DNA from: Bacteroidia bacterium
GTDB taxonomy: Bacteria > Bacteroidota > Bacteroidia > Flavobacteriales_E > Vicingaceae
Length of the DNA: 59,944 nucleotides
Reading direction: 5' to 3'
Assembly: GCA_030426475.1 (NCBI GenBank)
Contig: JAUHYR010000005.1
Coordinates: 1 to 59,944 of the forward strand
This document shows positions 1,914 to 35,536 of this stretch, one piece after another. The position numbers were made by a program, and so were the translations under genes. The notes below the pieces were generated by a model. That model saw nothing but the letters and a program-made list of their open reading frames with translations. It was not told where the DNA came from and searched no databases. The first letter of the stretch is position 1. Every line of letters starts with the position of its first letter.

Positions 1914-2578
1914 AGTCTCTCTCTATAATAATATTTTTCTTTTTTTCTTTGAGTTTGATTAGTCAAGAAGAAATTGACACTACTTTTTTTTCAAAAAAAG
2001 ATACATTAAATTTATTCTTGTCCTCATACGATATTTATATTGGTAAAAAACTTTTAAGCAACTCTCCTTTTAATGAGTTGAACTCCATTGATAATTTTAA
2101 TGCTAAAAAACCCCTTTCTTATATTGGAGTTGGGTATAGTGGTCGCTTTATTGTTAATAGAAGCAGCGACTATGACGGCCATATAATCTATAATCAGATT
2201 ATCCCTCAGAAAGTAAGCTATGATTCTCTAAATCTAGTCTTGAGCGGCTTTTCTTTTGCACTAACATATGGGAAAGCACTCATCTCAAAAAACAAAAAAC
2301 AGTCGATTATTTTTTCTTTGGGTTTTAATACTGGAAGAATTAAGCTTAAAAATAGTTCTTTGGGCTTACACTATAAAAACCCTTTTTTCTCTCCTAAGCT
2401 TTCTTTACAGCCAAAAACTAAAATTGGAAAAAGTTTCCTCTCTTTTATAATTGACTACGAATACGACATTTCTAACTACAAATGGAAAGAAAGAAGAAAA
2501 AACTCCTTGTCATATTCTTTTGCTAAAACAACCCTAACTGGTATTACAATATTGTTTTCTTTAGCTTTTCCCTTTTAA
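1910..2578 (+). CDS. Hypothetical secreted, possibly outer-membrane beta-barrel protein
   Basis: A 222-residue protein of no family I recognise. It has a signal peptide (about residues 1-18, K then a long F/I/L/S stretch ending ISQ). The body alternates polar and hydrophobic residues, is rich in G, S, Y and F, and ends in phenylalanine, which is the usual look of a small outer-membrane beta-barrel. It overlaps the upstream acyltransferase by 4 bp (ATGA) and its stop overlaps the stop of the convergent phosphatase gene (2575-2578). Co-transcription with a lipid acyltransferase hints at an envelope role, but that is inference. Confidence 0.65.
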   Translation: MKSLSIIIFFFFSLSLISQEEIDTTFFSKKDTLNLFLSSYDIYIGKKLLSNSPFNELNSIDNFNAKKPLSYIGVGYSGRFIVNRSSDYDGHIIYNQIIPQKVSYDSLNLVLSGFSFALTYGKALISKNKKQSIIFSLGFNTGRIKLKNSSLGLHYKNPFFSPKLSLQPKTKIGKSFLSFIIDYEYDISNYKWKERRKNSLSYSFAKTTLTGITILFSLAFPF

Positions 2579-4479
2579 ACCCTAACTCCCATCACACACA
2601 CATCATCTATTTGTTCTAAGTTGCCTTTCCAGTCTTTGAAAGTTTTGTCTATGATTATCTTTTGTTCTTCCATTGACTTTTCTTGAACTGATAAAAGAAG
2701 TTTCTTGAAGTTAGCCGCTTTGTACTTTTTACTTTTTTCTCCGCCAAACTGGTCTACATATCCATCTGTGAATATATAAATGCTGTCGCCTTTTTCTAAC
2801 TCTATACTGTGTGTCGTATAAGGATTGTTCGCTGCATATTTTCCTATCGGTTGTTTGTCTGCTTTTATCTCTAGTATCTCTCCGTTTCTTATTATCCATA
2901 ATGGATTATTTGCGCCTGCGTATTGAAGTTTATTTCCGTCAAGAGAACAAAGTGCGATGTCCATTCCGTCTTTTACTTCTTCTTCGCTTTTCTCAAATTC
3001 TGCTATTATTATTTCTCTAGTCTTGTCTAATATTTTTCCGGGTTCTGTTAATCCATGTTCTCTCACGCTTCTGTTTAATCCATTATTGCATACTACGCTT
3101 ACCATGGCTCCGGGTACGCCATGTCCGGTGCAATCCGCTGCTGCAAAAAGTACTTTTCCGTCTTTATGTTCTAACCAATAAAAATCTCCGGCTACTATAT
3201 CTTTAGGTTGATATAATATAAAGCTATGGGGTAAATGTTCCTTTATTGTTTTGATTGACGGAAGAATAGCTCCTTGAATTCGTTTTGCGTAATTTATACT
3301 GTCGGTAATTTCTTTATTCTTCTCCTCTATTATTACTTTTTGATACTTTGTTACTTTAAATCGGTTGAATAATAATACTAGCCCAATTATAAGTATTACG
3401 AGTCCGCACACTACAGCAATTATTACAACTTTTTGTTTTTCCTGACGTGACTTTTCAACTATTAATTGAGCCTGATGTTCTTTTTCTTTCAGAGCAATTT
3501 CTTTTTCATGTTCAAAATTTAACTGTGCCTCAACAATTTTTTTTGCGCTTTCGGCATCATTAATTGAGTCATTAATAACCGTGTATTCTTTAAAATAGTA
3601 GTAAGCACTATCAATGTTATTGCCCTTTTCAAATGCTGTAAAAAGAAGCCTGTTTATATCTGGCAAAGCCCAAGTGTTTTCAGTTGTTTTAGCAAGCGAC
3701 AAAGCTTTCCTGGCGTGTAATATAGACTTAGAATAGTTTTCAACTAAGAACTCTATTTGAGAAAGATTTATTTCAATCCAAATATTCGAATAAACATCTT
3801 CTTTATGTATTATTCTCAAGGCTTTATTGACATAGTACCTGGCGGAATCTATCCTATTAAGCCTTCTATAGGCCTCAGAAATTTGATTAAATGTTAGAGT
3901 TAGTTTTGTTGAATTCCCCTGCTTAATTCTATAGTTTTTACTTAAATAAAGATACTCTAAAGACTTATTAAACTCATTAAGGTTTATATATGCTGTTCCT
4001 ATATTGTGACAAACTTCTGCCTTTGTGTTAAAATCTGATTCTTTTAAACCTTCTAGTGTTGCTTTAAAATATTTAATTGCTTTGTCGTACTCTCCTGTGT
4101 AATAATAAACAGTTCCTAGGTTTCCATAAATATTAACCGGGTTTTGTCCTAATTCTTCATATAAATCAATTGATTTTTGATAGGCTTTTGTGGCGGCAAA
4201 AGAATTTCCTTTATACAGGCTTGCTCCTCCTTTACTGTTCCAAAAAAAAGCCTCTTGGGCAATCATTTTATTTTTCCTTGATAATTCAATACCTATATCT
4301 GCTATTTTTTCTGTAGAGTCCGGGTTGTTTTGAAGAATCAACATTGAGTATTTTCCTAAAGCTTTAAGCCTTATAGAATCGGAGTTTGATTTATCATTCC
4401 AAATATTTAATAGGCTATCTCCCTGGCTATATGAAATAGTGCTGACAAAAAATAATGTAATTAAAAATAAAGCTCTCAT
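2575..4479 (-). CDS. Membrane-anchored TPR sensor with SpoIIE-type PP2C phosphatase
   Basis: A 634-residue protein. A signal peptide (residues 1-19) is followed by an exported TPR region (about 40-310), a coiled-coil stretch (320-350), one membrane segment (351-371) and a cytoplasmic PPM/SpoIIE phosphatase domain (about 395-634). All blocks of the phosphatase are present: GDFYW 431-435, DCTGHG 449-454, DGMD 504-507, TDGYVDQFGG 571-580 and QIDDV 623-627, so the metal-binding aspartates are intact. Relatives dephosphorylate STAS anti-sigma-factor antagonists in partner-switching circuits. It is the last gene of a four-gene operon; its ATG overlaps the stop of the gene upstream by 4 bp. Its 3' end is nearly identical in DNA to that of the paralogue upstream. 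Confidence 0.9.
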   Translation of the reverse strand: MRALFLITLFFVSTISYSQGDSLLNIWNDKSNSDSIRLKALGKYSMLILQNNPDSTEKIADIGIELSRKNKMIAQEAFFWNSKGGASLYKGNSFAATKAYQKSIDLYEELGQNPVNIYGNLGTVYYYTGEYDKAIKYFKATLEGLKESDFNTKAEVCHNIGTAYINLNEFNKSLEYLYLSKNYRIKQGNSTKLTLTFNQISEAYRRLNRIDSARYYVNKALRIIHKEDVYSNIWIEINLSQIEFLVENYSKSILHARKALSLAKTTENTWALPDINRLLFTAFEKGNNIDSAYYYFKEYTVINDSINDAESAKKIVEAQLNFEHEKEIALKEKEHQAQLIVEKSRQEKQKVVIIAVVCGLVILIIGLVLLFNRFKVTKYQKVIIEEKNKEITDSINYAKRIQGAILPSIKTIKEHLPHSFILYQPKDIVAGDFYWLEHKDGKVLFAAADCTGHGVPGAMVSVVCNNGLNRSVREHGLTEPGKILDKTREIIIAEFEKSEEEVKDGMDIALCSLDGNKLQYAGANNPLWIIRNGEILEIKADKQPIGKYAANNPYTTHSIELEKGDSIYIFTDGYVDQFGGEKSKKYKAANFKKLLLSVQEKSMEEQKIIIDKTFKDWKGNLEQIDDVCVMGVRV

Positions 4480-6293
4480 ATTTTAACTCCAATTACACAC
4501 ACATCATCTATTTGTTCTAAGTTGCCTTTCCACTTTTCAAAAGCTTCCGCTAATTTTTCCTTTTGAGTATTCATGCTTAATGCATGTATTGACAATAAAA
4601 GCTCTTTAAACGGTTTTGATTTAAGTTTTTTTCCACTTTCTCCTCCAAACTGATCTATATAACCATCTGAAAAAAGATAAAGAACATCTCCTGTTTCAAC
4701 CTTTATTTCTTTTTTGGAAAAAGTGTTGTCATCGTAACTAACTCCGCCTATTGATTTTCTGTCTGCATCAACATCTATAACTTCACCTTTTCTTATGATT
4801 ACTAGCGGTCTATTTGCTCCGGAAAAAAGCAGTTTATTTCTTTCTTTATTGATTGCACAGAGTGCTATATCCATTCCATCATTTGCCTCAGATTTCGCTC
4901 CTTCTTTTTTAAAAACCGAACGAACTCCACTACTCACTTTTTCTAATATTTTTGCTGTATCATTTTCATCGTCTTCAATAATAATTTTGTTTAGTGCGTT
5001 GTTACACACCATTGAAACCATTGCGCCAGGCACGCCATGACCGGTACAGTCTGCCACAGCAATAAAATTAATGTCCTTTTTAGAGTGAAACCAATAAAAA
5101 TCACCACTCACAATATCTTTTGGCTGAAATAAAATAAAATGCTCCGGAAATTCTTGGGCTATAATTTCAGGTGAACAAAGTATGGTTTCTTGAAGCATTT
5201 TTGCATATTCAATACTGCTTCGTATTTCTTTATTTTTTTCTTTAAATAAAAGCGCTTCTTTTTCTGCCTGTTCAACCGCCATTGCAATTTGTTGTTGCTT
5301 TAATTGGTTAGCGGTTTCTGAGTTTAAAATGCTTTCTCTTATTTGATGAAACTGTTTTAGATAATTTAACGATTGCTGGTAATTGTTTCTGTTTTCTTCC
5401 AGAATAGAGAGTTGCTCTAATACTTCTGCATGAAGAGATTTTACATTAAGTTCTTGAGAGATTTTTAACGCTAATTCCAGATTTTTTTCTGCTTCTGAGC
5501 TTTCATGAGTTTTTAGTTGGTTTTTTGCTATTCCTAAATGACATAAAAGCTTTAAACGACTATCGTTTGTATTGGCTGACTTTATAGCTTCTTTATAATA
5601 CGTAATTGATTTTTCCGCTTCTCCTTGACTTTCAAACAAACTTGCCAGCCCCAAATAAGTCCAAGGTAATCCGTTTATGTCTCCGATATTATTTCTAAGC
5701 TCTAAGCTTTTATGATAATATTCCTCTGAAGTAGAAAAGTCTTTATTCAAAAGGTGGTTTCTTCCCAAAAGATTATATGCAGAAGCTTTTCCTAAATCAT
5801 CTTTTTCTTCGTTTCTAATACCAAGCACCAACTTGAAGCATTCTATTGCACTAGGATATTCTCTTATTCTAGAATATACTTGACCTAAAGTAGTTAGCGC
5901 ATCTGCAATTGCTGATTTATAATTTGCCTCTTTTGCAATGTTTACTGCTTTAGATGCATAGTGAAGTGCTTTTTCGTACTGACCGTATTGGTCGTAAATA
6001 AGCGCCAGTATGTTTTTACTTCTGGTTAAACCTAATTGGTCTTTCGATGCTTGAAAAAAATTGTGACACTCTAAAACTTCTTGTAAAAAATTATGGTCTT
6101 CTCCTTGCCAAAATTCCAGTAAAAGGATGTTTAATTTAGAAAAACAAATGCCTTTAAAATATGCTTGTTCTTTAGATTTTTCAAGGGATTGTGCCGCAAG
6201 TTCAAGCGATTTTTTTCGATTAGTGTATCTGTTTTGCCAAGCCTCTTGAAGCCGTTGGTTAATTTCCTTTTCTATTACTTTTTCTTCCGTCAT
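4476..6293 (-). CDS. Cytoplasmic TPR protein with SpoIIE-type PP2C phosphatase
   Basis: A 605-residue paralogue of the next gene in the operon, but without a signal peptide or membrane segment, so it should be cytoplasmic. Residues 15-325 form TPR repeats (for example around 90-160 and 170-240), a coiled coil follows (325-365), and the phosphatase domain fills 370-605 with GDFYW 397-401, DCTGHG 415-420, DGMD 472-475, SDGYIDQFGG 542-551 and QIDDV 594-598. The catalytic aspartates are intact. TPR regions of this type usually bind a partner protein that controls the phosphatase. It sits 1 bp after the CsgG-like gene and overlaps the membrane phosphatase gene by 4 bp, so the two phosphatases are probably made together. 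The dephosphorylated substrate is unknown; an STAS protein is the family precedent. Confidence 0.9.
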   Translation of the reverse strand: MTEEKVIEKEINQRLQEAWQNRYTNRKKSLELAAQSLEKSKEQAYFKGICFSKLNILLLEFWQGEDHNFLQEVLECHNFFQASKDQLGLTRSKNILALIYDQYGQYEKALHYASKAVNIAKEANYKSAIADALTTLGQVYSRIREYPSAIECFKLVLGIRNEEKDDLGKASAYNLLGRNHLLNKDFSTSEEYYHKSLELRNNIGDINGLPWTYLGLASLFESQGEAEKSITYYKEAIKSANTNDSRLKLLCHLGIAKNQLKTHESSEAEKNLELALKISQELNVKSLHAEVLEQLSILEENRNNYQQSLNYLKQFHQIRESILNSETANQLKQQQIAMAVEQAEKEALLFKEKNKEIRSSIEYAKMLQETILCSPEIIAQEFPEHFILFQPKDIVSGDFYWFHSKKDINFIAVADCTGHGVPGAMVSMVCNNALNKIIIEDDENDTAKILEKVSSGVRSVFKKEGAKSEANDGMDIALCAINKERNKLLFSGANRPLVIIRKGEVIDVDADRKSIGGVSYDDNTFSKKEIKVETGDVLYLFSDGYIDQFGGESGKKLKSKPFKELLLSIHALSMNTQKEKLAEAFEKWKGNLEQIDDVCVIGVKI

Positions 6294-6294
6294 T

Positions 6295-8388
6295 TTATTT
6301 TGGCCAAAACTTCATGGTTGTTTCCAGTGCTTTTGTACTTGAATCATTTGGGTGGGTTTCCATAAGGCTTTTTGTGACTTTTCTCGCCTCATCAAAATAA
6401 CCAATGTTTGTATAAGCAAGTGCTATCAGCATTATTTGTGATGATTCCATTTCGCTATTTATAAACGTACAGGTTTTTAATGCTGCATATCTGGTATTAA
6501 TTTCATCTATATACTGATGAGCGTCTTTATATTTTTGGGCATTTTCAGTAAGTATTCCACAAGATAGTTTATCGTCAGACGATAGTCTGTTGAAGTTTTT
6601 AGTTTGTTGTTCGGCAGTTTTAATGGCTGATTTTAACTGGCTTACTGTAGTTGTAAATTCTTTTGGTTCAAATGGTGTTTTTTCATTCGCCTTTTTAAAT
6701 TTTTCAAGAGCTTCTTCAGCTTCTTTTATTTTTCCTTTATCAGCTAATGTTTCTATTAAATCTTCCCATGCATCTATGGTAATGTCAAGTTCTTTTTCTG
6801 ATGATGGAGGAAACTTTTTAAGATAAAGCTCGCAGAGTTCAACCACTAAATCTAACTGATTATCCATTTCTCTTTTACTAAACCCCCATTTAACCAACTC
6901 TTCAATTTCCTGCTTCTTTCCTGCTTTAATTTTCTCTTTAATCTGTATTACTTTTTGTTGATTTTCTCTTATCTTATAAATGTCTTCTATACAATCTGTT
7001 TGCAGGTCGTAACTTTCCGATTCATCGTCTGTTCCTTCATACATCTTCAGTCCAAAATCTACTATTTTTTTCATGAAAACAGTATCCTCAAAATAAACCG
7101 CCATGGGATAAAAAGAGGTCATTTCATCAAAAGAAACATCTTCTTGGTGAACTAAAATTTCTTCTTTTTTTCTACTTAATATATTAACCGAATAAATTGA
7201 TTTTAATCGTTCGTACTGGCGTTTGTCGAGCTTGTGAAATACATAATCCCAGTCTAAGTCGTCAAAAAAATCTGCTGTTTCTGAAACTTCTGTTAATGCG
7301 ATAAGCGATTGTACGTTTTTCTTGCCTCTTTCTCTTGCTTCCAATTCTTCAATGGCATTCTCCAGTTGTAATTTAACGCTAGTATAATACATACTTGTTG
7401 CATATTTTTCGATGTATTTTCCTCCCACCTCAACCACTTCCTCAAGTCTTTTTAAAGAATTTAGCGCTAACACATCGTACATTCCCATCATTTCTCCGGC
7501 AGTAATTGCAGATGCCTCTCCATACAATTTAAGATCCGGCTTAATTCCCATTTTTCTAATCTCTTCATTAAATTCAAGCAGTTGACTATAGTTGTATGAC
7601 GAAAGTAAACTACTCCAAATATTTGTAAGCTTCATTCCTAAATCGGAAGCTTCCATATTTACTTGATTGATTTGCTCTTTAATTTGTTCTTTCAAAAGCT
7701 TTTCTCGCTGAGCATCAATTTCTTTTATTCTTTGTTTTACTTCTTCTAATTTACTCTTTGCTACTAAGAAACTTGGGTAACTATTAGTTGTTTCTTCTAA
7801 TATTTTTTTGGCTTCGCCCGTTAACCCTTGATCTTGGTAGTTAATGGCGTTAGAATAATTAATTACAGCAGTAAGCTCTACATCTTTTTTGGTATCAAAA
7901 ACTTCAGTTTTTTCAGGATTATATTGAACTTTTAATCCTTTCGAAAGAATGCTCACCAACTGCTTGTGAAGACTAAAAAAATTACTTTGATTTCCTGTTA
8001 CCTCTTCTGCAACAATTACTCCTCCTGTCTCTACATCTATCAGCCTTGCATCTATTCTTATGGTGTTATCTAAAATAAAAAATGCGCCTGTAAGAATAGT
8101 TTGTGCCCCTAAGCCTTGCCCTAATTTTTGAGCTGTGCTTTGATCAAAATATTTTGATTGATTAAGCTTTATTTCACCTATTAGTTTTTCTAGTTTTTCT
8201 CTCTCAACAATAGTAATTCCGGGAACTTTGGAAAAATCGGTAATAAGCATATCAGCAATTCCTTTGGAAAGTGCATTATATTTTGCGTTGCCCGAAGTAT
8301 TGTCAAAGTATGATATTGCAACTGTTCTACCGTAAAATGAAATACAACACCACAAAAAAATAAAAAGTATAGTCCCTCTTTTTAACAT
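6295..8388 (-). CDS. Exported CsgG/FlgO-like protein with TPR and helical C-terminal region
   Basis: A 697-residue protein. A hydrophobic signal sequence (about 1-20) is followed by a CsgG/FlgO-type domain (21-155): TVAISYFDN at 22-30, ITIVERE at 58-64, ILTGAFF at 98-104 and RIDARLIDVETG at 111-122. After it come a TPR-like pair (about 171-215), a coiled coil (205-245) and a long mostly helical region to the end. The N-terminus contains WCC at 13-15, but the preceding residues do not make a convincing lipobox, so periplasmic or membrane-anchored placement is open. CsgG forms the curli secretion pore, yet the transmembrane hairpins of CsgG are not evident here and no curlin genes are nearby. 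The gene shares a 1-bp overlap with the upstream CsgG-like gene. Confidence 0.75.
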   Translation of the reverse strand: MLKRGTILFIFLWCCISFYGRTVAISYFDNTSGNAKYNALSKGIADMLITDFSKVPGITIVEREKLEKLIGEIKLNQSKYFDQSTAQKLGQGLGAQTILTGAFFILDNTIRIDARLIDVETGGVIVAEEVTGNQSNFFSLHKQLVSILSKGLKVQYNPEKTEVFDTKKDVELTAVINYSNAINYQDQGLTGEAKKILEETTNSYPSFLVAKSKLEEVKQRIKEIDAQREKLLKEQIKEQINQVNMEASDLGMKLTNIWSSLLSSYNYSQLLEFNEEIRKMGIKPDLKLYGEASAITAGEMMGMYDVLALNSLKRLEEVVEVGGKYIEKYATSMYYTSVKLQLENAIEELEARERGKKNVQSLIALTEVSETADFFDDLDWDYVFHKLDKRQYERLKSIYSVNILSRKKEEILVHQEDVSFDEMTSFYPMAVYFEDTVFMKKIVDFGLKMYEGTDDESESYDLQTDCIEDIYKIRENQQKVIQIKEKIKAGKKQEIEELVKWGFSKREMDNQLDLVVELCELYLKKFPPSSEKELDITIDAWEDLIETLADKGKIKEAEEALEKFKKANEKTPFEPKEFTTTVSQLKSAIKTAEQQTKNFNRLSSDDKLSCGILTENAQKYKDAHQYIDEINTRYAALKTCTFINSEMESSQIMLIALAYTNIGYFDEARKVTKSLMETHPNDSSTKALETTMKFWPK

Positions 8389-9695
8389 TAAACAGGTTGT
8401 TTGAGTTGTTCAAGTGCCTTTTTCGCAGGCTCAAAGTTTGGTTGTGATTTAAGTATTTCTTCAAATTTTTGGATTGCCTCTGTGGTTTTTCCTGCGTCCA
8501 TTAATTCAAGTCCTTCTGAATATTTCAAACTTGCTTCGTAAGATATTTTTTCCTTCATAAAATCTTGCTCTACTTCTTGCTTTTCTTCCACCGCTAAATC
8601 AATGTTCAGTCCGCTTAGTAGTTTCCATACTAATTTCTTTTCAAGGGAAAAAAACTCTGTGGAAGGGCCGTCAACTCCTTCTGACTTTAGAATTTTTCCG
8701 GTTTCCACATCTATTATTCTGGCGTCTATTCTTAAACTGCCCATCAGCTCAAAGTAAGCTCCGGTTAAAACATGTTCTACACCTAAAAGTTTTCCTATTT
8801 TGCTTGCGGTAGCTGCATCAAAGTTTTTAGTGTTATTCATCTTTTGTTCTTCTATAATTTCTTGTATTCGGTCTCTTTCTATTACGCTCAACATTTTAAC
8901 TTTAGATAAGTCAGATATCATCATTGCGGCAAGTCCTTTTTTAAGTTTATCTAAACTTTTATCGTCTGAGCTGTTGTCAAAATACCATACCGCTATTCGT
9001 TTTGCATCAGGATTGGGGGTAATATTATTTAAGTTTTCAACCATTTCTTCCTGGTTTTCTATCTCGGTATTTTCAGTAGATATTGGGTCTGCTACTTCTG
9101 TATTATTTATTGTTGTTTCCTGTTTATTGAATAGCTGTTCTTTAAAAATAAATATTAACGTAATGATAACCGCTGCCAGCCCTATAGAGTAAACAAATGC
9201 CTTATTGCTTTTCTTACTTTTTTGTTCCAGTTTAATGGCTGGCGATTTTTCCGCATAATCTTGAATTGGGGATTGTAATTCGTTCGGAATTTGACCATGT
9301 AAATATTCTAGAAAAAACCAATTGGATAAGCTGGCAAGTGCTGATTGGCAAGGGGCAATCCATTCCTGGGTGGTTTCGGATAAATCTTCTTGGGCGTGAG
9401 AGGCATAATTTCCATACGTTTGAATTGTGCCGATTAAAATTCCTATTCTGTCCGGAACAATTTTTTTCTGAACTAACTCGCGTCCATAATCGCTCAACAT
9501 CATTTTCTTTTTCGGCTCGCCAATATCTTTCAGGTAGATAAACCTGCAGATTGCTTCGGTTGTTTTTCTTGCATTTTGTAAAAAAGTGTCCGGATCTTGC
9601 TCGGCATAACCAAAAGACTTAACAAGCATTCGGCTCAGGTGACTTACCTTTTCTTCAAGGCTTTCAATTTTTGAGTCTTTGTCGTTTTCTTGCAT
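8388..9695 (-). CDS. Single-pass membrane protein: DUF4145-like N-terminus, CsgG/FlgO-like domain, TPR
   Basis: A 435-residue protein and first gene of the four-gene operon. Residues about 15-130 resemble the helical DUF4145-type domain found in restriction and defence proteins (R51 to H100 region). A membrane segment lies at 167-184, a low-complexity acidic linker at 190-230, a CsgG/FlgO-like domain at 232-365 (AVWYFDNSS 235-243, VIERDRI 271-277, LTGAYFELMG 310-319, RIDARIIDVETG 322-333) and a TPR pair at 383-430. With the positive cluster at 157-165, the N-terminal domain should face the cytoplasm and the CsgG-like domain the periplasm. This arrangement would link an envelope CsgG-like module to the cytoplasm and hence to the phosphatases encoded downstream; that role is inferred. 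Confidence 0.7.
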   Translation of the reverse strand: MQENDKDSKIESLEEKVSHLSRMLVKSFGYAEQDPDTFLQNARKTTEAICRFIYLKDIGEPKKKMMLSDYGRELVQKKIVPDRIGILIGTIQTYGNYASHAQEDLSETTQEWIAPCQSALASLSNWFFLEYLHGQIPNELQSPIQDYAEKSPAIKLEQKSKKSNKAFVYSIGLAAVIITLIFIFKEQLFNKQETTINNTEVADPISTENTEIENQEEMVENLNNITPNPDAKRIAVWYFDNSSDDKSLDKLKKGLAAMMISDLSKVKMLSVIERDRIQEIIEEQKMNNTKNFDAATASKIGKLLGVEHVLTGAYFELMGSLRIDARIIDVETGKILKSEGVDGPSTEFFSLEKKLVWKLLSGLNIDLAVEEKQEVEQDFMKEKISYEASLKYSEGLELMDAGKTTEAIQKFEEILKSQPNFEPAKKALEQLKQPV

Positions 9696-34700: not shown

Positions 34701-35139
34701 AGCAAAAATGGCAGCCACCCAAGGAGCGCTTCGTCAAAAACTACAAGAGCTTCAAAAACAAATGGAATCAGAAGGTGGTGTGGATGGAAAAAAAGCCGGA
34801 AACAAGCTAAACGAAATTTCTAAAATGATGGAAGAAACCGAAACCGACTTGGTTAATAAAAATCTTACCAGGCAGACCATGCAGCGACAAGAAGAAATTT
34901 TAACTCGCTTGTTAGAGTCTGAAAAAGCCATGCGCGAAAGAGAATTTGACGACAAAAGAGAATCGCGAGAAGCAAAAAATGAGGAATATCGTAACCCTTC
35001 CGAATTTTTTGAGTATAATAGCATCAAAAACAAGGAAATCGAATTACTTAAAACTCTACCCCCATCCTTTTCTACGTTTTACAAAGAAAAGGTGTCAGGG
35101 TACTTTAAAACTATTCAAAACACTAGTGGTAGCAATTGA
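31711..35139 (+). CDS. DUF4175 large membrane-anchored coiled-coil protein
   Basis: A 1142-residue protein. Three membrane segments near the N-terminus (about 41-60, 67-88 and 172-190) are followed by a beta-rich exported region (about 200-510), then a long glutamate-, lysine- and glutamine-rich coiled coil (about 515-960) and a less regular G/K/P-rich region with further coiled coil to the end. This is the DUF4175 layout found throughout Bacteroidota; function unknown. I give the TTG at 31711 as start; an in-frame GTG at 31750 is an alternative. The next gene begins inside its 3' end. Confidence 0.85.
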   Translation: MKNFFRTLPLLNTVRNNAYHIILQKIDAFIRKYYKNQLIKGALLSVSAIGSYFILATVLEYYGNFSSLVRGGLFFGFVGVTLFFLSKYVALPLMKLNKMGDVISHQEAAKVIGNHFSNVKDKLINILQLKEQAGNQPQAELLLASIEQKTTELRPIPFGSAIDIRENIKYLKYAAIPLFLFLIIALYKINILTDSSERLINYGTYFEKPAPFKFELTSANLQAIKNEDFSVSTKLSGNEIPQQVYVEISGQLFKLDKLDKFSHEFTFNNIQENTTFRFFADGFYSAPCEISVLPNPSLQGFDVELVYPKYLKRSNQQLSNAGDIQIPQGTVVKWNFQTQDVEQLNLAISDTSLEAERVSETNFQYKKQFYKSTPYAVSGKNKFITSKDTLRYFIDVVPDLYPSIELEQRTDSVSSKRVYFKGYIKDDYGLTQLTFNYRFLNKEEDKTFHSEKIGFNINSNQDQFFHFWNLAPLNIESGDEIEYYFEVWDNDGINGRKSSRSSKMVFKAPTLNELSEQTKKNNEEIKNDLQQSINSAKNIKKGLEDLNKKMLEKKNLGWEEKKKFDELLEQQKELQKELEQINQQNQQNNQQNEEYRQIDERILEKQEQLQKIFDELMNEDLKKMFEEMEKLMERMDKNQLQQQLEQMELKNEDLEKELDRTLELFKQLEVEQKIDELKNKLDDLAEKQEKLSEQTKNKELSKEELEKKQEELNKEFDKIQEDFKELDEKNQELEKPNEMPNTSDEQKKIDENMGQGKEEISKGKNSKASEMQKQASDDMKSLSDKLSQMQGQMSSQQTGEDMENLRQILENLLRLSFDQEELMEKVKATNFTDPNYLTLTQKQKQLKDASKVIQDSLFELSKRVVQLQSIVNKEINAINNNMDKAVEQMANRNTGVATSRQQLAMTSINNLALLLDEAVQQMQKQMAAQQNSGSCKNPGSNPGQKPGNSAAIGNMKKLQEQLNKQMQEMKDALEKGEKPGQKNDGGKTGGFGMSKEIAKMAATQGALRQKLQELQKQMESEGGVDGKKAGNKLNEISKMMEETETDLVNKNLTRQTMQRQEEILTRLLESEKAMREREFDDKRESREAKNEEYRNPSEFFEYNSIKNKEIELLKTLPPSFSTFYKEKVSGYFKTIQNTSGSN

Positions 35140-35536
35140 TTTAAAGATAGAATCTAAAATAGAAAACCTTCACAAGGTAGAGGCATTAATAGAAAATATT
35201 TGCCGAGATCTTCAGTTGGAAGAAGATGCTTTTGGAAACCTTTTAATTGCCGTTACCGAAGCAGTAAATAATGCCATTCAACACGGAAATAAAAATAATC
35301 CTGATAAAACTGTAAATATTCAGTTCAAAAAAGAGCAAGACAATCTAACGTTTAGTATTGAAGATGAAGGAGACGGCTTTGATTTTGAAAACCTTCCCGA
35401 CCCAACTGCGCCAGAAAACATTGAAAACCCAAGCGGCAGAGGAGTTTTCTTAATGAAAAATTTAGCTGACGGAGTAGACTTTCAAAACAACGGCAAAAGA
35501 GTAGACCTTAAATTCAATTTAATGGTTGCGGTATAA
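35126..35536 (+). CDS. RsbW-like HATPase (anti-sigma-factor kinase family)
   Basis: A protein of 136 residues with the GHKL ATPase motifs of RsbW/SpoIIAB: N-box EAVNNAIQHGNK at 45-56, G1 box DEGDGFD at 80-86 and G2 box GRGVFLM at 104-110. The open frame extends far upstream inside the DUF4175 gene, but a GTG at 35126 gives the usual family length and overlaps the DUF4175 end by 14 bp. RsbW-type proteins bind sigma factors and phosphorylate STAS antagonists; two SpoIIE phosphatases, which would reverse that step, are encoded at 2.6-6.3 kb. A link is plausible but unproven. ybeY starts on its last base. Confidence 0.88.
   Translation: MVAIDLKIESKIENLHKVEALIENICRDLQLEEDAFGNLLIAVTEAVNNAIQHGNKNNPDKTVNIQFKKEQDNLTFSIEDEGDGFDFENLPDPTAPENIENPSGRGVFLMKNLADGVDFQNNGKRVDLKFNLMVAV

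Follow-up and report, generated by a model that had tools for sequence, protein, structure and literature searches.

The whole stretch analysed here, referred to as the window, comprises 59,944 nt of the forward strand of contig JAUHYR010000005.1 from a Vicingaceae Bacteroidia bacterium (GCA_030426475.1; 2.87 Mb in 139 contigs, 97.7% complete), and it carries an operon in which two CsgG-like proteins are encoded next to SpoIIE-type phosphatases. The open reading frames bear out the layout given in an earlier note on this DNA, namely four genes (g1 to g4), all on the minus strand, with junctions of -1, +1 and -4 bp, and Pfam and hydropathy agree with the domain make-up that it described. The 435-aa product of g1 (8388..9695) combines a DUF4145 (HEPN clan)-like cytoplasmic domain (9261..9668, residues 10-145), which has the highest conservation within the operon, a single transmembrane (TM) helix found by hydropathy (9144..9200, residues 166-184), a CsgG-like domain (the a copy; 8601..9005, residues 231-365) and one TPR-like repeat. 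The helix is preceded by KKSNK, and positive residues on its N-terminal side predict an N-in, C-out topology that places the CsgG-like domain in the periplasm. The g2 gene (6295..8388, 697 aa) encodes a protein with an N-terminal signal peptide-like segment, the b copy of the CsgG-like domain (7939..8328, residues 21-150) and a long helical, TPR-like C-terminal region. The third core gene, g3 (4476..6293, 605 aa), encodes a TPR-SpoIIE phosphatase of the SiaA-like PP2C type, predicted to be cytoplasmic as it has no TM segment, with its catalytic domain at 4482..5063 (residues 411-604). Last, g4 (2575..4479, 634 aa) encodes a signal peptide, exported TPRs, one TM helix (residues 351-369) and a second SpoIIE domain. 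Promoter and terminator scans returned signals no better than those from shuffled sequence.

The earlier note had treated all four genes as one operon and proposed a check of their co-occurrence across genomes. When 395 genomes of the class were searched with a g2 profile, and a family-wide search with g1 had added further loci, the linkage of g1, g2 and g3 was upheld and g4 fell outside it. Full-length g2 was found in seven other genomes, six of which have an adjoining g1-type CsgG gene; in the seventh (G170), the g1-type gene lies on a separate contig, and both contigs end there. The DUF4145-TM-CsgG form of g1 is present in G259 and G143 and, from the search with g1, in G438, G431, G433 and G441, all from a family other than that of the host. 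The three genes are complete in G259, G143 and G438, whereas the contigs of G431 and G433 end inside g3 and that of G441 ends inside g2. Across these six further genomes the order and strand are the same, the junctions measure -1 to 30 bp apart from one of 98 bp, and g3 follows g2 by 3-30 bp in all five loci whose contig reaches g3. Since the same order recurs in another family, the arrangement is more than chance, and, on these comparisons of sequence, the conserved unit is g1-g2-g3; g4 is absent from the three complete orthologous loci. A scan of genome contigs for loci related to g2 gave only two remote Nitrospirae CsgG proteins, and two scans of viral contigs gave no matches. In G259 alone, an nSTAND1-WD40 protein is encoded downstream of the operon (L084, 3385-6303).

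The cytoplasmic domain of g1 is under strong constraint. Its amino acid identity is 82-83% when the window is compared with G259, G143 or G438, whereas four-fold degenerate sites in the same domain are 25-30% identical, near random (12-55% across all regions compared, with small counts). With silent sites saturated, recent transfer was rejected as the source of the conserved N-terminal domain, and the domain has therefore been kept by selection. In the window protein the Pfam DUF4145 match is under the cut-off (E 0.0026), but two orthologues score 26.7 and 23.5 bits against a gathering score of 23.1, so that the DUF4145-like label of the earlier note holds. With this domain alone as the query, the strong matches among the 395 genomes were the window and two orthologues only, with two weak matches elsewhere, indicating that this HEPN-like version is operon-specific. 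All seven g1 orthologues contain TYGNYA(A/S)H, in which the N and H of the HEPN motif are retained, and the R-x4-6-H catalytic motif of HEPN (DUF4145) RNases is absent from all seven, as there is no R. We read the domain as a putative binding rather than cutting domain. The weakly predicted secondary structure of g1 (a helical N terminus and mixed alpha/beta at 233-362) merely agrees with HEPN-like and CsgG-like parts, and profile searches of the PDB with g1 and g2 returned only chance matches to repeat proteins.

Both CsgG-like domains are recognized by Pfam (g1, residues 232-313, E 2.6e-14; g2, residues 22-104, E 1.9e-12), and these are the only two CsgG matches in the whole host genome. The earlier description of the proteins as CsgG/FlgO-like stands in terms of these matches, but they cover only the first half of the profile (the best stretch is approximately 10-97 of 210), the domain being approximately 135 residues long. 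The FlgO profile scores 22.0 and 22.1 bits in the window against a cut-off of 22.6 and 22.9-23.1 bits in orthologues, which also exceed the LpoB cut-off. No conserved cysteine of a lipobox was found at the mature N terminus of g2 in the alignment, and g1 has a TM helix instead; an alignment with Escherichia coli CsgG, of low hhalign probability, skips the insert that matches the CsgG membrane segment. Because the domains are short and have no lipobox, a curli-type channel is unlikely, and the label would denote a fold family rather than an export channel.

The CsgG regions of g1 and g2 align with each other over 200 columns at probability 100. In a tree of 34 domains, g2 domains form one group (support 100/99) and g1 domains together with those of a caspase-containing variant described below form another (93/95); the two copies, a and b, are separated in distant loci too. 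Several distant branches of this tree are long, and its deepest order is uncertain. The separate groups indicate that the duplication predates the phosphatase and caspase variants and that the pair stayed together, so that the two domains are, by alignment and tree, paralogues that are still neighbours. Between the window and G259, G143 or G438 the CsgG domain is 76% identical in g2 and 68-73% in g1, compared with 47-50% for the SpoIIE domain of g3 and 28-43% for the linker-TM, helical and TPR regions.

The phosphatase encoded by g3 (TPRs and SpoIIE in Pfam, residues 411-604, E 1.6e-20) has a sole PDB match at E 1e-10, 6K4E (E 4.5e-37), and retains the acidic residues aligned with the SiaA catalytic domain. 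The 6K4E structure is the PP2C domain of SiaA, which dephosphorylates SiaC at T68, a protein that SiaB phosphorylates (PMC7647112). SiaA (NF038263) also ranks first in NCBIfam, with local matches of E 3e-57 and 7e-53 that score 194.5 and 180.1 against an equivalog cut-off of 700 bits; at scores so far under the cut-off, g3 is SiaA-like rather than SiaA. Its TPR region is 37-44% identical to that of orthologues, as against 21-24% to paralogues from its own genome. The earlier note had placed the phosphatases in partner switching on STAS proteins, and the SiaA matches correct this point: the expected partner of g3 would be SiaC, with SiaB as the kinase, rather than a classical STAS antagonist.

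The host genome encodes three SiaC proteins, on other contigs, each gene approximately 3 kb or less from a SpoIIE gene and adjoining either DUF6272 genes, which we take to be the SiaB family, or other SpoIIE genes. One of them contains LEYFNTSSSK, resembling the SiaC T68 peptide LLYLNTSSIK, and the other two have LEYFNSASTK and LDYISSRSV at this position. Given a SiaA-like phosphatase domain and SiaC and SiaB-family genes in the same genome, a STAS partner need not be postulated, and within the window no STAS antagonist is encoded near the operon, as the earlier note had observed. The one clear stand-alone STAS protein of the host is encoded next to a ribonuclease Z-like gene on a different contig. 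Within the window, an RsbW-like HATPase_c_2 protein (E 2e-27) is encoded at 34946-35536, between the gene for a long coiled-coil protein and ybeY.

The g4 product consists of TPRs and a SpoIIE domain in Pfam (residues 440-634, E 1.6e-20), and the latter is 55-65% identical to other SpoIIE proteins of its own genome and 51% to g3; its TPRs have no close match within the orthologous loci. These comparisons make g4 a local, lineage-specific addition from a large family of resident paralogues, as the host has 35 SpoIIE genes, g4 among them. Some stand in tandem (three on contig C100 and two each on C82 and C12), and set against the three SiaC genes their number would suggest many inputs funnelled into few substrates.

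A second form of the CsgG pair dispenses with the cytoplasmic domain. In five genomes (G068, G146, G178, G103 and G170), a protein composed of a signal peptide, a CsgG domain and a caspase domain (Peptidase_C14, E 1e-20 in G068), the caspase being predicted periplasmic, takes the place of g1; these loci have no adjoining SpoIIE gene, although G178 has one approximately 5 kb off. The exported CsgG-caspase fusion adjoins g2 in loci L050 (6733-10346), L086, L087 and L088, while for the fusions of L089 and L090 there is no g2 on the contigs fetched; L050 and L089 have the caspase motifs GHG and DACFSG in intact form.

Outside the class, too, CsgG genes resembling g1 are paired. Among the 17 distant loci fetched, 12 have a Hanks-type kinase beside or near a CsgG gene (10 by motif and two by inspection) and eight have a PP2C gene, with an FHA gene in some; three of the kinases were checked in Pfam and contain PEGA repeats. 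The CsgG pairs of L145-L156 lie next to such kinases with PEGA repeats, PP2C and FHA, and type VI secretion genes (VasE, VipA/VipB and DUF2169) were confirmed by Pfam in two distant loci, L153 and L156. A further four loci (L142, L143, L144 and L157) share a layout in which the two CsgG genes are several kilobases apart; in L142, L144 and L157 a protein of 1100-1470 aa is encoded between them, and L142 also has a Pfam-confirmed CHASE2-adenylate/guanylate cyclase beside a succinate dehydrogenase-like gene. The kinase, PP2C, FHA and cyclase genes are neighbourhoods of distant CsgG pairs and not proven couplings. The paralogous CsgG pair might be a general, exchangeable envelope platform of the phylum, with outputs through a SiaA-like phosphatase and a HEPN-like TM adaptor, a periplasmic caspase, Hanks kinase, PP2C and FHA proteins or CHASE2-cyclase loci, a generalization that we consider doubtful at present.

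We tentatively propose, at somewhat less than even confidence, that g1, g2 and g3 form a trans-envelope signalling device in which the CsgG pair controls the SiaA-like phosphatase via the cytoplasmic domain of g1. In the periplasm, the CsgG-like domains of the membrane-anchored g1 and the soluble, exported g2 would pair, and the long helical region of g2 would read a ligand or a condition of the envelope and so set the state of this pair. This state would be relayed through the single TM helix of g1 to its HEPN/DUF4145-like domain, which may dock the TPRs of g3 and switch the phosphatase. In turn, g3 would dephosphorylate a SiaC-type protein that a SiaB-type kinase keeps phosphorylated, and in this lineage g4, whose exported TPRs would give it a separate input, might serve as a further phosphatase. 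The earlier note had already suggested an envelope-to-cytoplasm device, and external CsgG modules, a cytoplasmic domain that shares its chain with one of them, a TPR-phosphatase inside and a conserved linkage fit that proposal, although the second phosphatase falls outside the unit. Several observations weigh against such a device. The contacts between the three proteins are putative, and AlphaFold models of single window sequences run without an alignment reached a predicted local distance difference test score (pLDDT) of 48 and 40, too low to be of use for complexes. The caspase variant has no cytoplasmic part and yet employs the same g2, so that the pair serves for more than coupling to a phosphatase. 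Neither siaB nor siaC was found in or adjoining the operon within the window, SiaC is not specific to genomes with the operon (it occurs in all 16 related genomes tested, including controls that have no operon), and a ratio of 35 phosphatases to three SiaC genes leaves specificity unexplained.

The main rival reverses the direction of the signal: the CsgG pair would be the effector, building the envelope or assisting secretion, and the phosphatase recruited by g1 would regulate the pair or a kinase that acts on it. Most relatives with the CsgG fold have structural or activating roles in the envelope, as in curli and Pel export, and distant CsgG pairs lie beside Hanks kinase, PP2C and FHA genes, some of them next to type VI secretion genes. 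Threonine phosphorylation is known to switch the type VI secretion apparatus on (PMC3953482). Set against this, the window has no structural or secretion genes next to the operon and none recur at the orthologous loci, the short CsgG domains are devoid of a lipobox, and the peaks of conservation include the cytoplasmic domain and not CsgG alone; we consider this reversed order unlikely.

A conflict or cell-death device, in which a CsgG-pair receptor would have either a HEPN-like or a caspase domain as its killing effector, is very unlikely. HEPN/DUF4145 domains are common in defence (PMC3710099) and the caspase of the sister family has intact motifs, but the HEPN motif has no R, its domain keeps 82-83% identity from one family to another, as arms-race effectors would not, the caspase is predicted to be periplasmic, PADLOC matches are weak or generic, and no defence genes were seen at the loci except the nSTAND gene near the G259 copy. 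That the genes are mere neighbours without functional coupling would be favoured by the 35 SpoIIE genes, which would make an accidental junction likely, and g4 resembles such an insertion. For g3, this explanation is already disfavoured, as in all five loci whose contig reaches it the gene after g1-g2 is g3, with an orthologous TPR region, and overall we regard it as highly improbable.

Among known systems, SiaABC(D) of Pseudomonas aeruginosa (PMC7647112) is alike in that 6K4E is the nearest solved relative of the g3 phosphatase domain and the host has SiaC and SiaB-family homologues, one SiaC with an NTSS site; it differs in that SiaA has its own sensor part, whereas the input of g3 would be its TPRs and a separate CsgG pair, and siaB, siaC and siaD are absent from the operon. 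Within the CsgG/FlgO/LpoB/TolB_N fold family, whose Pfam CsgG profile g1 and g2 match above its cut-off, the domains stand apart not only in their length and their missing lipobox and membrane-segment insert (the latter from the low-probability alignment) but also in occurring as pairs and in their fusion to TM, HEPN-like or caspase parts. The RsbU/SpoIIE-STAS-RsbW switch shares with g3 a PP2C of the SpoIIE Pfam family, and the host has a stand-alone STAS protein and an RsbW-like ATPase, but g3 resembles SiaA best and those genes are not at the operon. PpkA/PppA/Fha control of type VI secretion finds a parallel in the distant CsgG pairs, which have Hanks kinase, PP2C and FHA genes as neighbours and in some cases belong to type VI clusters; the window locus has no kinase, FHA or type VI gene. 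As the earlier note had supposed, the literature searched, most subscription journals lying outside it, yielded no description of a CsgG pair joined via a HEPN-like TM adaptor to a SiaA-like phosphatase. SiaA-like phosphatases and CsgG-fold proteins are each known, and what appears new, within that literature, is their conserved union through the adaptor.

CsgG-fold proteins are usually regarded as export or peptidoglycan factors, and this operon ties them to Ser/Thr phospho-signalling. To our knowledge, bacteria of this group have dozens of SpoIIE-type phosphatases and hardly any known inputs. The operon gives one such phosphatase a defined, conserved transmembrane partner pair, so that its input becomes testable.

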